DNA of 64,000 nucleotides, from the NCBI RefSeq assembly GCF_023277115.1, contig NZ_JALQCS010000001.1, forward strand, positions 1,420,001 to 1,484,000, in the 5' to 3' direction. Below the pieces are notes generated by a model. It was not told where the DNA came from, made no database searches, and worked only from the letters and a program-made list of their open reading frames with translations. Positions 500-4,998 of the stretch are shown here, one piece after another. Source of the DNA: Acidithiobacillus acidisediminis. Its GTDB lineage: Bacteria; Pseudomonadota; Gammaproteobacteria; Acidithiobacillales; Acidithiobacillaceae. The first letter of the stretch is position 1. The number at the start of each line of letters is the position of its first letter. The translations under genes were made by a program, and so were the position numbers.

Positions 500-553
500 T
501 TATTGGTGCCGTTGAGGGGAATCGAACCTCTGACCTAGTGATTACGAATCAGT
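500..553 (-). repeat. Direct repeat of the tRNA-Thr 3' end (distal att site)
   Basis: These 54 bases repeat 4919-4972, the 3' part of the intact tRNA-Thr(CGT) gene, with one mismatch (538 against 4957, tRNA position 42). The copy runs from just beyond the CCA end through the T arm, variable loop and anticodon loop, and stops in the anticodon stem. This is the arrangement left by integrases that insert at tRNA 3' ends: an intact tRNA at one side and a partial copy at the other. The D arm and 5' acceptor half are missing, so it cannot be a working tRNA. Confidence 0.85.
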
Positions 554-1109: not shown

Positions 1110-1379
1110 ATGCAGATTACTTTTGACCCGGCAAAAGATCAGCGTAACACCAACAAGCATGGGTTAAGCCTGAGTCTCGCTAGCCGGTTGGAATGGGATC
1201 TGCTTCTGGCCACAGTGGACGACCGAAAGGCATATGGAGAGCTTCGTATGATCGGCTATGCCCCTATCGGCACCCGGGTCTACTGCGTAGTGTTCACGGA
1301 CCGGGGCGAGGAACGACGGATCATCAGCCTGCGCAAGGCGAACAGTCGAGAGGTGAAACAGTATGCAAGTCAAATCTAA
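1110..1379 (+). CDS. brnT: BrnT family toxin (DUF497)
   Basis: This 89-residue protein has the BrnT plan: an N-terminal 'ITFDPAKDQRNTNKHGLSL' segment (the family's 'fdwd..K...N..KHGvsf' pattern), a central strand with 'RMIGYAPIGTRVYCVVFTDRGEERRIIS', and a C-terminal 'RKANSREVKQY' ending. BrnT is a ribonuclease toxin with a RelE-like fold that blocks translation until neutralised by BrnA. The gene overlaps brnA by 17 bases, as usual for this pair, so both come from one mRNA. BrnTA operons are normally repressed by the BrnA-BrnT complex. The pair lies just upstream of an hsdR remnant; toxin-antitoxin pairs are often found inside type I restriction loci. Confidence 0.9.
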   Translation: MQITFDPAKDQRNTNKHGLSLSLASRLEWDLLLATVDDRKAYGELRMIGYAPIGTRVYCVVFTDRGEERRIISLRKANSREVKQYASQI

Positions 1380-1653
1380 ATCGGGGCGGAGTTTTGATCT
1401 TCCCAGCCCAGAAGAGGACGAGGCCATCCAGCGGGGTATCGAAGCAGACCCGGACACCCAGGAACTGAGTCCTATGCAGTTCCGTCAGCTCAAGCTCAAA
1501 GGGCGCCCCCCAGCGGCGGTCACCAAGGAAAAAATCAGTATCCGCCTATCCCCCCACGTCGTGGAGCGTTTTCGGGCCTCTGGTCCGGGCTGGCAGGGGC
1601 GGATGGATGCCGCTTTGCAGGAATGGCTGGCTACCCACGGAGATCCCAAATAA
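1363..1653 (+). CDS. brnA: BrnA family antitoxin
   Basis: This 96-residue protein overlaps the end of brnT. Its C-terminal half carries the BrnA signature 'KISIRLSPHVVERFRASGPGWQGRMDAALQEWL', a ribbon-helix-helix DNA-binding domain that dimerises and binds the operon's own promoter. The N-terminal part is rich in charged residues and should wrap the toxin. It starts with ATG at 1363 inside brnT, so translation is probably coupled. Both partners are intact by length and motif, so this may be the only functional module left in the element besides the secreted repeat protein. Confidence 0.9.
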   Translation: MQVKSKSGRSFDLPSPEEDEAIQRGIEADPDTQELSPMQFRQLKLKGRPPAAVTKEKISIRLSPHVVERFRASGPGWQGRMDAALQEWLATHGDPK

Positions 1654-1702
1654 AGCTCGTAGCCCCATCCACGAAACCGTCATAGCCTATAGGTTTCCCT
1701 TC

Positions 1703-1892
1703 ATGGCCATCCATAACGAAATTGTCCACGAAGCCGAAATCTGCAGCGACTTGGCTTCCCAAGGCTGGCTCTACACACCACCTCAAGGCAGTACCATCAG
1801 CCCAGATGATCATCGCTATGACCGAGAGCGAGCCCTCTTCCCGCCGGATCTGCTGGACTGGATCCAAGAGACCAAACCCCAAAGCTGGGAGC
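1703..1892 (+). pseudogene. hsdR: Type I restriction enzyme R subunit, N-terminal fragment
   Basis: An ATG at 1703 opens 'MAIHNEIVHEAEICSDLASQ', followed by 'GWLY...HRYDRERALFPPDLLDWIQETKPQSWE', which matches the N-terminus of one large HsdR family ('aicahLa..GWLY....YDraRALFPeD...W.q'). After about 63 codons the sequence passes into the truncated IS3 element. The nuclease and helicase motor regions that should follow are absent from the window. HsdR is the endonuclease/translocase subunit of type I systems; this fragment cannot work. It lies 50 bases after brnA on the same strand. Confidence 0.75.
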
Positions 1893-2437
1893 GCCTGCTC
1901 CAGTGCGTCCAGCACGAAGTCCGTCGTCATGCTTCGACTCACTCGCCAGCCAACGATGCGCCGGGCGAACACGTTGATCACGAAGGCCACATACAACCAG
2001 CCCTGCCAGGTCGAAACATAGGTGAAATCCGAGACCCAGAGCTGGTTCGGCCGATCCGCCTTGAACTGGCGATTCACCCGATCCAGCGGGCACGGTTGTT
2101 TGGAGTCGGGTACCGTCGTGCGCACGCTTTTACCCCGCACCGCGCCACGCAATCCTAGGCGGTTCATCAGGCGCTCCACGGTGCAGCGCGCGACCTCAGT
2201 GCCTTCGCGCTTCATCTGCCGCCAGACCTTGTCCGCGCCGTAGACTTGAAGATTGGCCTGCCAGACGCGCTCGATCTTGGGTATCAATACTTCGTCGCGT
2301 TGCGCACGCGCACAACGCAGCGCGGGATTGCGCTGGCGTGTGGCATGAAGCCGGTAGCCCGACGGGGCGATCTTCAAGACACGGCAGATCGGCTCGACCC
2401 CAAAAGCATCGCGATACGTATCGACGAAGGTATTCAT
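1890..2437 (-). pseudogene. IS3-family transposase OrfB, C-terminally truncated
   Basis: The ATG at 2437 overlaps the orfA stop (ATGA). The protein shows the IS3 OrfB helix-turn-helix part ('VYGADKVWRQMKREG...CTVERLMNRLGLRG') and the first catalytic Asp in 'QLWVSDFTYV'. Normal sequence continues to 'TTDFVLDALEQAL'. After that the frame runs as antisense of hsdR and brnA down to 1631, giving a 268-codon chimeric frame with no transposase sequence. The second Asp ('HSDRGSQY') and the Glu of the DDE triad are missing, so it cannot catalyse transposition. Confidence 0.8.
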
Positions 2438-2766
2438 GACTTCAGACGGCGGTCGAGCTCCGCCTGGGCAAAAAACGTACTTGCCAGCTTCAGGATTTCA
2501 TTGGCACGGCGCAATTCCTTGACCTCACGCTCCAGCGCCTTGATACGTTCACACTCTTCGCTGGTGACGCCGTCGCGCAATCCGGTATCGACTTCATGCC
2601 GTTTAACCCATTCATGCAAGGTATGAGGCGAACAGCCGATCTTAGGAGCAATAGACTCCACCGCCGCCCAGGGCGAGGAATACTCGCCGCGGTGTTCCTG
2701 CACCATGCGCACCGCGCGTTCGCGAACTTCAGGGGAATATTTGGGTGCTTTAGCTTTGTTCATCAT
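2434..2766 (-). CDS. IS3-family transposase OrfA
   Basis: This 110-residue OrfA has the N-terminal helix-turn-helix ('[20 protein letters not shown]...[18 protein letters not shown]') and a leucine-zipper tail ('[24 protein letters not shown]') that links it to OrfB. I chose the ATG at 2766, giving '[11 protein letters not shown]'; the open frame extends into the terminal inverted repeat, but that part is not expected to be translated. It appears intact, yet without a full OrfB it can only bind DNA, at most repressing related elements. Confidence 0.8.
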
Positions 2767-2815
2767 GGCTCCATTCTCTTGGAAAAAGGAGCCTCCACGA
2801 AACCCGGGGCGGTTC

Positions 2816-3760
2816 AAAGAGATCCTCAAAGCCTTCCGTACCTACTACGAGACAGCGGAGCTCGAGAATGTCACGGACCCCAACCTGATCTTTGATCTAC
2901 GAGTGAAGCTGGACACCCAGGACTGGTACACGGAAGACGATGTGAATGCCGTGGCCCGTCTGGTCCACGAGGGGGGCAAGCAGTCTGCCTTGGATAAGAT
3001 CCTGGTGCCCATTGCCAGCAATATCCTGAGCAGGTATCGCGAGGCCAAGCGTCGCTTTCAAGAGGCCGAGGCCAGCAGTGCCAGCCAGGCAGCGGCCAAG
3101 GATGAGATGGAAAGCCTGCAGCTCTTCAAGAAAGACATGGGCAGCTACGTCCGTCTCTACGGCTTCCTGAGCCAGATTTTTCCCTATGGCAACACGGCCT
3201 TGGAGAAACGGGCCTTGCTCTACCGTCTACTGGAGCGTCTACTCACCTTTGATCGAGAGATAGAGAGCGTGGACCTCTCGGCTTTGGAGTTGACCCACCA
3301 TACCCTGAAAAGCCTGCAGCCCCCCAAGATGAGTTTGGGCTATGGTGCTCCCCTCAAGCCGAGTGGCCCGGGAGAGGGCATGGTACGAGATCGTCACAAG
3401 GAAACCCTGGAAGCCATCCTACGGGCCATCAACGAGGTCTTTGCCGGGGAGATCGACCCCAAGGATCAACTGGTCTATGTGAATGACGTCATCAAGGGCA
3501 AGCTGCTGGACTGTGAGATCCTGGTGCAGCAGGCCATTGCCAACACCAAGGAACAATTTGCTGCCTCCCCCGACCTGGACCGGCTCCTCAAGGATGCCAT
3601 TCTGGATGCTCTATCGAGCTTTACCGACATGAGCAAGCAGGCCTTGGAGTCTGCCCAGGTCTTTGAGGACCTCAAAAGCGTATTGCTGGGACCCGCGAGC
3701 CTGTATGAGGCACTGCGGGGCAGGGCGGAACAACAGACCGGTGGTGACGTAGAAGGATAA
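2816..3760 (+). pseudogene. hsdR: Type I restriction enzyme R subunit, C-terminal fragment
   Basis: Downstream of the IS left end the frame resumes as '[20 protein letters not shown]' and continues for about 314 residues of HsdR C-terminal region. Markers include 'VRLYGFLSQIFPYGNTALEKRALLYRLL', 'LTHHTLKSL', 'LVYVNDVIKGKLLDCEILVQQAIANTKEQFAASPDL' and 'ILDALSSFTDMSKQAL'. This helical domain assembles HsdR onto the methyltransferase core. A full HsdR of this type has about 1000 or more residues; only about 63 N-terminal and 314 C-terminal residues remain, so most of the protein was deleted with the IS right end. No hsdM or hsdS remains in the window. The frame is otherwise clean, which suggests a recent loss. 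Confidence 0.8.
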
Positions 3761-3773
3761 TGATAAACACCAG

Positions 3774-3804
3774 AAAAGGCCGTTGACGATACTTCGCAAC
3801 GGCC
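3774..3804 (-). terminator. Rho-independent terminator of the secreted repeat protein gene
   Basis: GGCCGTTG (3778-3785) pairs with CAACGGCC (3797-3804) around an 11-base loop. Read on the minus strand, the stem is followed by a TTTT run, so it ends transcription of the gene at 3829-4563. It also separates this gene from the convergent hsdR fragment. Confidence 0.7.
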
Positions 3805-3828: not shown

Positions 3829-4563
3829 TTAGGGGTGTGGTGGCCCGCCATGGGGACCGCCAGGCCCTCCAGGGCCGCCATGATGAGGACCGTGGAAGCC
3901 TCCGGGGCCACCAGGATGAGGTCCATGGGGACCACCAGGCCCTCCAGGGCCACCGGGATGAGGGCCATGGAAGCCACCGGGGCCGCCATGATGAGGACCG
4001 TGGAAGCCACCAGGGCCCCCAGGGCCACCTGGATGAGGACCATGGAAACCACGAGGACCACCTGGACCACCAGGGTGAGGGCCATAGAAAGCTGCCCCTT
4101 GGTCTCGCGGACCTCGGTATTGCGGCCCTCTAAATCGCGCAGCCCACAGCCATCTCCCAGGTGCAGCTCGGATTTGGCCTGGTGGTGGCGGTGGGGGTGG
4201 TGCCATACCCAAAACTCGGTAATAAGCCCCTGGTGGCGGCGGTGGTGGTGCTCCAGGTGGAGGCGGCAATGGTGGCGGTGCACCATAGGGTGGAGGCGGA
4301 GGTGGAGCAGAGTAATATTCGTAGTAAATCTGTGGGTAGTATTGCCACATAACATACTGGGAATACAGGGTTGGTGTGTAGTAGGGCTCATAATAGGAGG
4401 GTGGGGCCAGATAGGTGTACTGGGGGACATTGGAGAAACCAATGTCATAGCCTGGCCCTCCCAGATTGAGGCTAAAGTCAAGCTGAGCGAGTGCTGGTGT
4501 TGCTACGCCAAAGGCGGACAGCGCTGCGGCTATGATCCACATCTTTTTGGTCAGACGTTTCAT
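3829..4563 (-). CDS. Secreted Pro/Gly/His/Tyr-rich low-complexity protein
   Basis: The ATG at 4563 follows AAGGAG and gives 244 residues; in-frame codons upstream lack a ribosome site. 'MKRLTKKMWIIAAALSAFGV' plus 'ATPALAQ' is a Sec signal peptide with an Ala-X-Ala cleavage site. The mature part has three zones: a Tyr-rich part ('PSYYEPYYTPTLYSQY', 'YYPQIYYEYY'), poly-proline runs ('APPPPPPYGAPPP'), and a tail of repeats built on 'HGPHPGGPGGPGGF' with His at regular spacing. There is no catalytic domain. Such proteins are usually exported and act structurally or bind metals or surfaces, but no function can be assigned. The gene is alone, with its own terminator, inside the tRNA-Thr element. 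The name of a known family is not evident to me. Confidence 0.7.
   Translation of the reverse strand: MKRLTKKMWIIAAALSAFGVATPALAQLDFSLNLGGPGYDIGFSNVPQYTYLAPPSYYEPYYTPTLYSQYVMWQYYPQIYYEYYSAPPPPPPYGAPPPLPPPPGAPPPPPPGAYYRVLGMAPPPPPPPGQIRAAPGRWLWAARFRGPQYRGPRDQGAAFYGPHPGGPGGPRGFHGPHPGGPGGPGGFHGPHHGGPGGFHGPHPGGPGGPGGPHGPHPGGPGGFHGPHHGGPGGPGGPHGGPPHP
3835..4075 (-). repeat. Tandem degenerate repeats coding Gly/Pro/His units
   Basis: The 3' third of the secreted protein gene consists of imperfect units coding variants of HGPHPGGPGGPGGF and HGPHHGGPGGF, visible on the + strand as recurring ccaccagg, catggggacc and gatgaggacc blocks. Unit length varies by short in-frame insertions, typical of slippage or unequal crossing over. 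Copy number is likely to vary between strains. Confidence 0.7.
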
Positions 4564-4922
4564 CTTGTCGACTCCTTGACCGTTATCGTGTGACAGGGGA
4601 GTTGCGCCCTGCAATAAAAAATAAGCAGCATCTGTGCCACCCAACCAAATCATGTAGTTCACTCTGCCGGGGCGGCCAGAGCTGTAGAGTTTTGGCTACA
4701 CACAAACAGATACAGCTGACTTGTGATCTGCAATCTCCCGAAATCCCAGGATAACGCTAATGGAGTCAGGTCGTGGGAGAACGACATGGTGGGAGGGTGG
4801 TTGCTGGTGAGCCAGTATCTTGTCTTGCACACCGATAGACCGAGTTGGACGCCAAGCGTCTACTATATGTCTACTGGGTAGAAAAATGGCCTAGACGCAA
4901 TTATCGAACATATTGTTTTTAT
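4564..4922. other. Intergenic stretch between the repeat protein gene and tRNA-Thr
   Basis: These 359 bases hold the AAGGAG ribosome site of the repeat protein gene next to its start, and presumably that gene's promoter on the minus strand, for which I see no convincing hexamer pair. No further gene, clear hairpin or repeat stands out. The last few bases before 4923 form part of the shared repeat flank of the tRNA. Confidence 0.5.

Positions 4923-4998
<76 letters not shown>

Follow-up and report, generated by a model that had tools for sequence, protein, structure and literature searches.

In the PP-alpha arrangement, known from pancreatic polypeptide and the PPalpha miniprotein, a polyproline helix packs against the aromatic side of an alpha helix. 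In Acidithiobacillus, the orphan core families I-V are lineage-restricted and without clear function, according to the accessible part of PMC5186765, and for the second ICE of A. ferrooxidans ATCC 23270, the available portion of PMC6416229 lists a GAF-PAS-GGDEF-EAL-type protein encoded close to trb-type genes. The gene studied here lies in a 64,000-nucleotide window (the whole stretch of DNA analysed) from Acidithiobacillus acidisediminis, and is probably, judging from its sequence, a subfamily-A member of an unnamed family of exported proteins whose members, in this analysis, came only from Acidithiobacillaceae. In its product, an export-type start precedes the aromatic motif LYxQYxxWxYYPxxYYxYY, and a poly-Pro stretch with GAPPPP and then a Gly/Pro tail follow.

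This Tyr/Pro-rich gene is real and its bounds are correct. The coding sequence occupies 3829..4563 on the minus strand (735 bases, 244 aa plus the stop), with the ATG at 4563-4561 and the stop codon at 3831-3829, as established from the ORF list and translation, the homologues and the third-position bias; these coordinates are those of the initial annotation, which gave no strand. The annotation also described a real gene with its own ribosome site and terminator, and both signals were located on the minus strand: a ribosome binding site, AAGGAG, at 4572..4577, 8 nt 5′ of the ATG, and a terminator-like hairpin followed by UUUUCU at 3778..3804, 3′ of the stop. The folding of this hairpin stands out against shuffles (z -3.64; equal stability in 1 of 200), and it is missing from the output of a simpler terminator scan. 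Other long ORFs in the ORF list overlap the gene on both strands, but relatives vary mostly at the third codon positions of the gene's frame (168/121/608 at positions 1/2/3 in 10 chosen pairs).

The protein begins with a candidate Sec signal peptide at residues 1-26 (4486..4563, minus strand, as are all segments below), whose cleavage site was read by eye between MKRLTKKMWIIAAALSAFGVATPALA and Q and whose residues 4-18 form a helix in the predicted model; inspection thus agrees with the export-type start noted before. The mature chain of 218 residues contains 61 Pro, 52 Gly, 20 Tyr and 15 His. In the alignments, its N-terminal segment, QLDFSLNLGGPGYDIGFSNVPQ (4420..4485), resembles subfamily B and leads into a conserved aromatic module at residues 49-84 (YTYLAPP...LYSQYVMWQYYPQIYYEYY; 4312..4419), in which helices are predicted over residues 64-75 and 77-83, as they are in a model of the core. 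The translation and alignment then give a poly-Pro stretch with GAPPPP spacers at residues 85-129 (4177..4311). A linker with GRWLWA and RGPxxRGP at residues 130-160 (4084..4176) is peculiar to subfamily A, as compared among the window copy and those of genomes G007, G025 and G026. The HGPHPGG repeat tail fills residues 161-244 (3832..4083) and holds five HGPH units. Its regularity, remarked on earlier, is visible in a tandem-repeat scan, where a degenerate repeat with a 75-bp unit (2.9 copies, 82% matches) covers part of the tail.

The description of the chain as almost wholly low in complexity was dropped, since about 36 residues form the conserved aromatic module. Copies of the family yielded 29 distinct translations, 24 of which were taken into the comparison. 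In the 23 of these that entered the motif count (L060, which does not fit, was dropped beforehand), the aromatic motif has 13 invariant positions out of 23, nine of them Tyr. In AlphaFold2 models, each from five sequences, the full-length protein reaches a mean pLDDT of 48.9 and the core a mean pLDDT of 61.0 with a pTM of 0.56, rising to 70-80 over mature residues 21-80; short helices are placed within the aromatic module in both. The PDB gave no convincing match: one weak sequence match was found (E 0.25), one structure search returned none, and the search with the core model gave one row at E 7.4.

A search for the layout in related genomes had been suggested, and it recovered a family. A protein search with the single sequence found relatives in six of the eight genomes of the genus, its own included. 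A profile of the core (A1), of which the window sequence is itself one row although it was independently recovered by the single-sequence search, gave 38 rows, spread over 18 of 29 Acidithiobacillaceae genomes; two of these rows are the halves of one broken copy. The same profile had no match in the other 11 and none in two genomes from another family of the same order. The family is patchy across Acidithiobacillaceae, and often multicopy. Beyond the family, A1 matched two of 369 genomes in a sample of the class, both of them Acidithiobacillaceae, and a wider profile (A6) matched two of 398 in a sample of the phylum, the class and phylum samples overlapping to an unspecified extent. The two phylum matches were the genome studied here and G600, whose lipoprotein-like ORF has neither the LYxQYxxW motif nor poly-Pro and was judged a chance match. 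A scan of named genomes gave at least four loci and, among the matches listed, all were Acidithiobacillus records. Models of Pfam, NCBIfam and PHROG, the PXPV repeat included, did not match the window protein, nor did Pfam match six relatives or NCBIfam five, in keeping with the earlier impression of a possibly undescribed family. The family is likewise not described in the titles and abstract openings searched, among the matches listed, which is not proof of absence. A phage or plasmid gene as such was set aside for now, as no match occurred in plasmids, phages or IMG/VR, comparisons of which the plasmid and phage parts may leave out records very near the window's genome.

The 24 sequences share a short N-terminal segment, the aromatic module and poly-Pro with GAPPPP spacers. 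Their tails diverge into GGPPP arrays, QGP or GFGP types and, in subfamily A, RGP/HGP; the Gly/Pro tails evolve fast. Some members have a lipoprotein-like beginning, as judged by eye, and the genome studied here also carries a tandem pair of family copies (L049:8050-9750), in which a copy that starts in the Sec manner stands beside one with a lipoprotein-type start. In the tree, the window copy is grouped with those of G007, G025 and G026 with support of 98/90. Of 16 chosen pairs, 10 have a finite dS, and their dN/dS is 0.03-0.11; for the aromatic part alone it is 0.004-0.14 in 10 of 13 pairs. These values indicate purifying selection on the core of the relatives. The remaining six of the 16 pairs are saturated and include all four with the window copy, so that for this copy the support comes from its third-position bias: differences from three relatives at codon positions 1/2/3 are 24/19/75, 36/27/84 and 37/33/91.

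The initial annotation placed the gene within an element, and exact 38-bp direct repeats found by the repeat search do flank it. One att-like copy (4919..4956, minus) overlaps the 3′ end of a tRNA-Thr (CGT) gene (4923..4998, minus; tRNA detection), the presumed integration target in view of relatives at the same site, and the distal copy (500..537, minus) marks the other end. In 100 shuffles, no match arose to a 27-bp core of the repeat when up to three mismatches were allowed. Between the repeats lie genes for a BrnT toxin (1110..1379, plus; PF04365, E 1.1e-20) and a BrnA antitoxin (1363..1653, plus; PF14384, E 7.5e-18), followed by a two-frame transposase with an ALIL pseudoknot (1631..2829, minus; Pfam rve, HTH_21 and HTH_Tnp_1), whose assignment to the IS3 type is our own reading. 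The stretch at 2830..3760 (plus) probably encodes a C-terminal piece of the R subunit of a type I restriction enzyme, with 48-50% identity to five listed matches, one of which is annotated as a type I restriction endonuclease; Pfam, NCBIfam, PADLOC and the PDB gave no match for it. An 81-aa membrane-like ORF at 645-890, recognized by eye, also lies inside, and renders doubtful the statement that the Tyr/Pro gene is the only non-defence cargo. No integrase or transfer gene was noticed among the ORFs, which were read by eye and in some cases scanned, and the element is a 4.4-kb remnant.

The alignment of the stretch from gyrA to the tRNA gene with G001, G004 and G005, at about 78.5%, breaks at the tRNA (gene names by eye). 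An aldo/keto-reductase gene to the left of the element is matched weakly (32%) in G001, whereas six further relatives gave no match. G001 has two occurrences of a 23-base core of the repeat, G004 has one on each of two contigs, and G005 has three, one of them with two mismatches; G025 has none. In G001, the repeats enclose 110 kb (G001:C1:1686005-1796217) with a subfamily-B copy and genes for TrbI and a coupling protein inside. The 3′ end of tRNA-Thr (CGT) resembles an integration hot spot, with 4.4 kb flanked here, 110 kb in G001 and the extra repeat copies in G004 and G005.

Around the family copies as a whole, a modest link to conjugation genes was observed. Markers of T4SS lie within 25 kb of four of 18 mapped copies (random mean 0.90, P 0.009), within 5 kb of two (P 0.015) and within 40 kb of five (P 0.009). 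These counts cover seven genomes with long chromosomes, one of the 18 copies being broken and the copies being partly non-independent. A gene for an outer-membrane-barrel-like protein of 224 aa ending in Phe also accompanies copies: a family copy (in one case a broken one) is situated within 0.6 kb at 10 of the 18 strongest loci of this gene, and the gene lies within 2 kb of six of the 18 copies, against a random mean of 0.03 in the seven genomes. The window copy is not beside such a gene, and the intact barrel gene of its own genome adjoins the broken copy at about 591 kb. This conserved barrel-like family (A4 rows, e.g. L051:7405-8079) has profile matches, many of them weak, in 22 of 29 Acidithiobacillaceae genomes at E<=0.001, and the one member scanned had no Pfam or NCBIfam match. 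In addition, several envelope genes recur near some copies (L015:458-5217, L064 and L049), namely MdoG (L015, L064), cytochrome b561 with VTT/DedA (L015, L049) and an outer-membrane efflux gene (L015). More exported-looking Tyr-rich or Tyr/Pro-rich proteins without a Pfam match are also encoded near copies (L016:7745-8608 and L051:11616-11942).

Several readings of the gene can be weighed against these observations. That it is a decaying hitch-hiker, a non-functional relic within a degraded island, appears unlikely. The element lacks a noticed integrase or transfer gene and holds a restriction-gene fragment and an IS, and the record of frame loss among close relatives, which the annotation had named as a check, is mixed. 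The copy of G007, one of the three other subfamily members, contains an in-frame TAG, the family copy at about 591 kb in the own genome (L050, G000:C1:591391-592367) is broken, and the frame is apparently lost in the repeat tail of L005 (G005) and in the Pro-rich stretch just before the tail of L029 (G010), where repeat slippage or assembly error are both possible. Most other copies read are open frames. In the window, moreover, the frame is open across 244 codons between its ribosome site and hairpin, and the third-position bias holds against all three relatives compared. A function for the mobile element itself, in which the variable tail would lend specificity to surface or entry exclusion, to mating-pair contact or to a change in receptor exposure, we regard as similarly improbable. 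It would suit the positions of this copy and the G001 copy between att-like repeats, and also the location of copies in G014, G010 and G018 a short way behind genes for a coupling protein (1-1.5 kb from the match) and a transglycosylase. The next gene downstream of the G014 copy (L059) encodes GAF, PAS, GGDEF and EAL domains, as does the gene in the second ICE of ATCC 23270 in the excerpt of PMC6416229. However, 14 of the 18 mapped copies have no T4SS marker within 25 kb, G005 carries two copies yet has no match to either T4SS family, and no gene of GGDEF-EAL size lies in the 5.5 kb downstream of the G018 copy. The gene table of ICEAfe1, as far as it is given in the consulted part of PMC6370655, names no such protein either, though that is a different element.

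A metal-binding tail, as the annotation had suggested, is disfavoured, and the reading that the His/Gly/Pro tail binds or stores metal is decidedly unlikely. The His residues of the mature chain are many in the three full-length subfamily members (15 in the window copy with its HGPH units, 12 in L058 and 7 in L040), and genes resembling P-type ATPases or cation efflux proteins were seen by eye near two copies, L058 and L060. Across the family, however, His is not kept: counts are 0-1 in all nine members of subfamily B, 0-6 in seven of subfamily C and 1-8 in four lipoprotein-like members. With 0-1 His in 14 sequences (including a fragment) out of the 24, metal ligation is not a family trait. 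Furthermore, the mature chain of the window copy contains no Cys, and imidazole, with a pKa of about 6, should be protonated at pH 1-3, a range taken from the accessible parts of PMC8886135 and PMC2621215. Counted from sequence, the window copy would have a charge of about +23 at pH 2 (15 His, 8 Arg), so chelation by His would be unlikely and an electrostatic role possible. Charge is not a family trait either, since subfamily B carries 0 to +5 and the lipoprotein-like members +18 to +26, mainly from Arg. Cross-linking of the Tyr-rich protein through dityrosine into an extracellular matrix or coat is very unlikely: the 20 Tyr among 218 residues, and the nine invariant ones of the motif, would provide the substrate, but no oxidase was noticed by eye as a constant neighbour, and the invariant spacing equally suits a fold.

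The reading that we prefer, tentatively and at somewhat less than an even chance, is that of a structural protein of the envelope, whose aromatic module would dock or self-assemble while the tail projects outward. After Sec export, the aromatic module would fold into a small unit of helix plus polyproline and dock to an outer-membrane partner or to itself; at several subfamily-B and a few subfamily-C loci, this partner may be the adjoining barrel-like protein. The poly-Pro stretch would serve as a stiff spacer, and the Gly/Pro tail, at the cell surface, as a projecting, disordered brush. The tail of the window copy could behave at pH 1-3 not as a metal chelator but as a polycation (about +23 for the whole copy) that retains anionic surface polymers or minerals. 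An extracellular or surface polymer formed by the protein, raised as an option earlier, is possible. Copies may sometimes be carried by ICE-like elements as envelope-modifying cargo.

A bolder extension, which we consider doubtful, would be a modular surface coat of extreme acidophiles. In such a coat, an invariant aromatic/polyproline dock, often with its own outer-membrane barrel, would show fast-changing tails (Pro-rich, Gln/Gly-rich or protonated His-rich) that are swapped between strains by conjugative elements and thereby re-dress the host surface. A multicopy envelope family in bioleaching acidophiles would gain an anatomy open to testing and a tie to their mobile elements, and the case would show that apparent low-complexity filler can conceal a deeply conserved module.

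Compared with known systems, the likenesses of the family are partial. The product of L051:11616-11942, encoded about 3 kb from a family copy, presumably resembles the PXPV-type exported Tyr/Pro-rich low-complexity proteins of proteobacteria. It shares with the family a signal-like start, a short segment and then a Y/P-rich stretch, but is devoid of the LYxQYxxWxYYP motif, and neither has a Pfam match. With the PP-alpha arrangement, the family may have in common an aromatic helix followed by a polyproline stretch, as predicted at middling model confidence, although no structural match was found in the PDB. The orphan families I-V resemble this family in being lineage-restricted and without clear function, but they are core, whereas this family is patchy and often multicopy, and the accessible text of PMC5186765 on them contains neither 'proline' nor 'tyrosine'. 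As for ICE cargo of Acidithiobacillus, the 4.4-kb remnant of the window, with no transfer or integrase gene noticed, differs from such elements, while copy L059, adjoining T4SS genes and the GAF-PAS-GGDEF-EAL gene, is similar to the second ICE of ATCC 23270 as presented in the available portion of PMC6416229.
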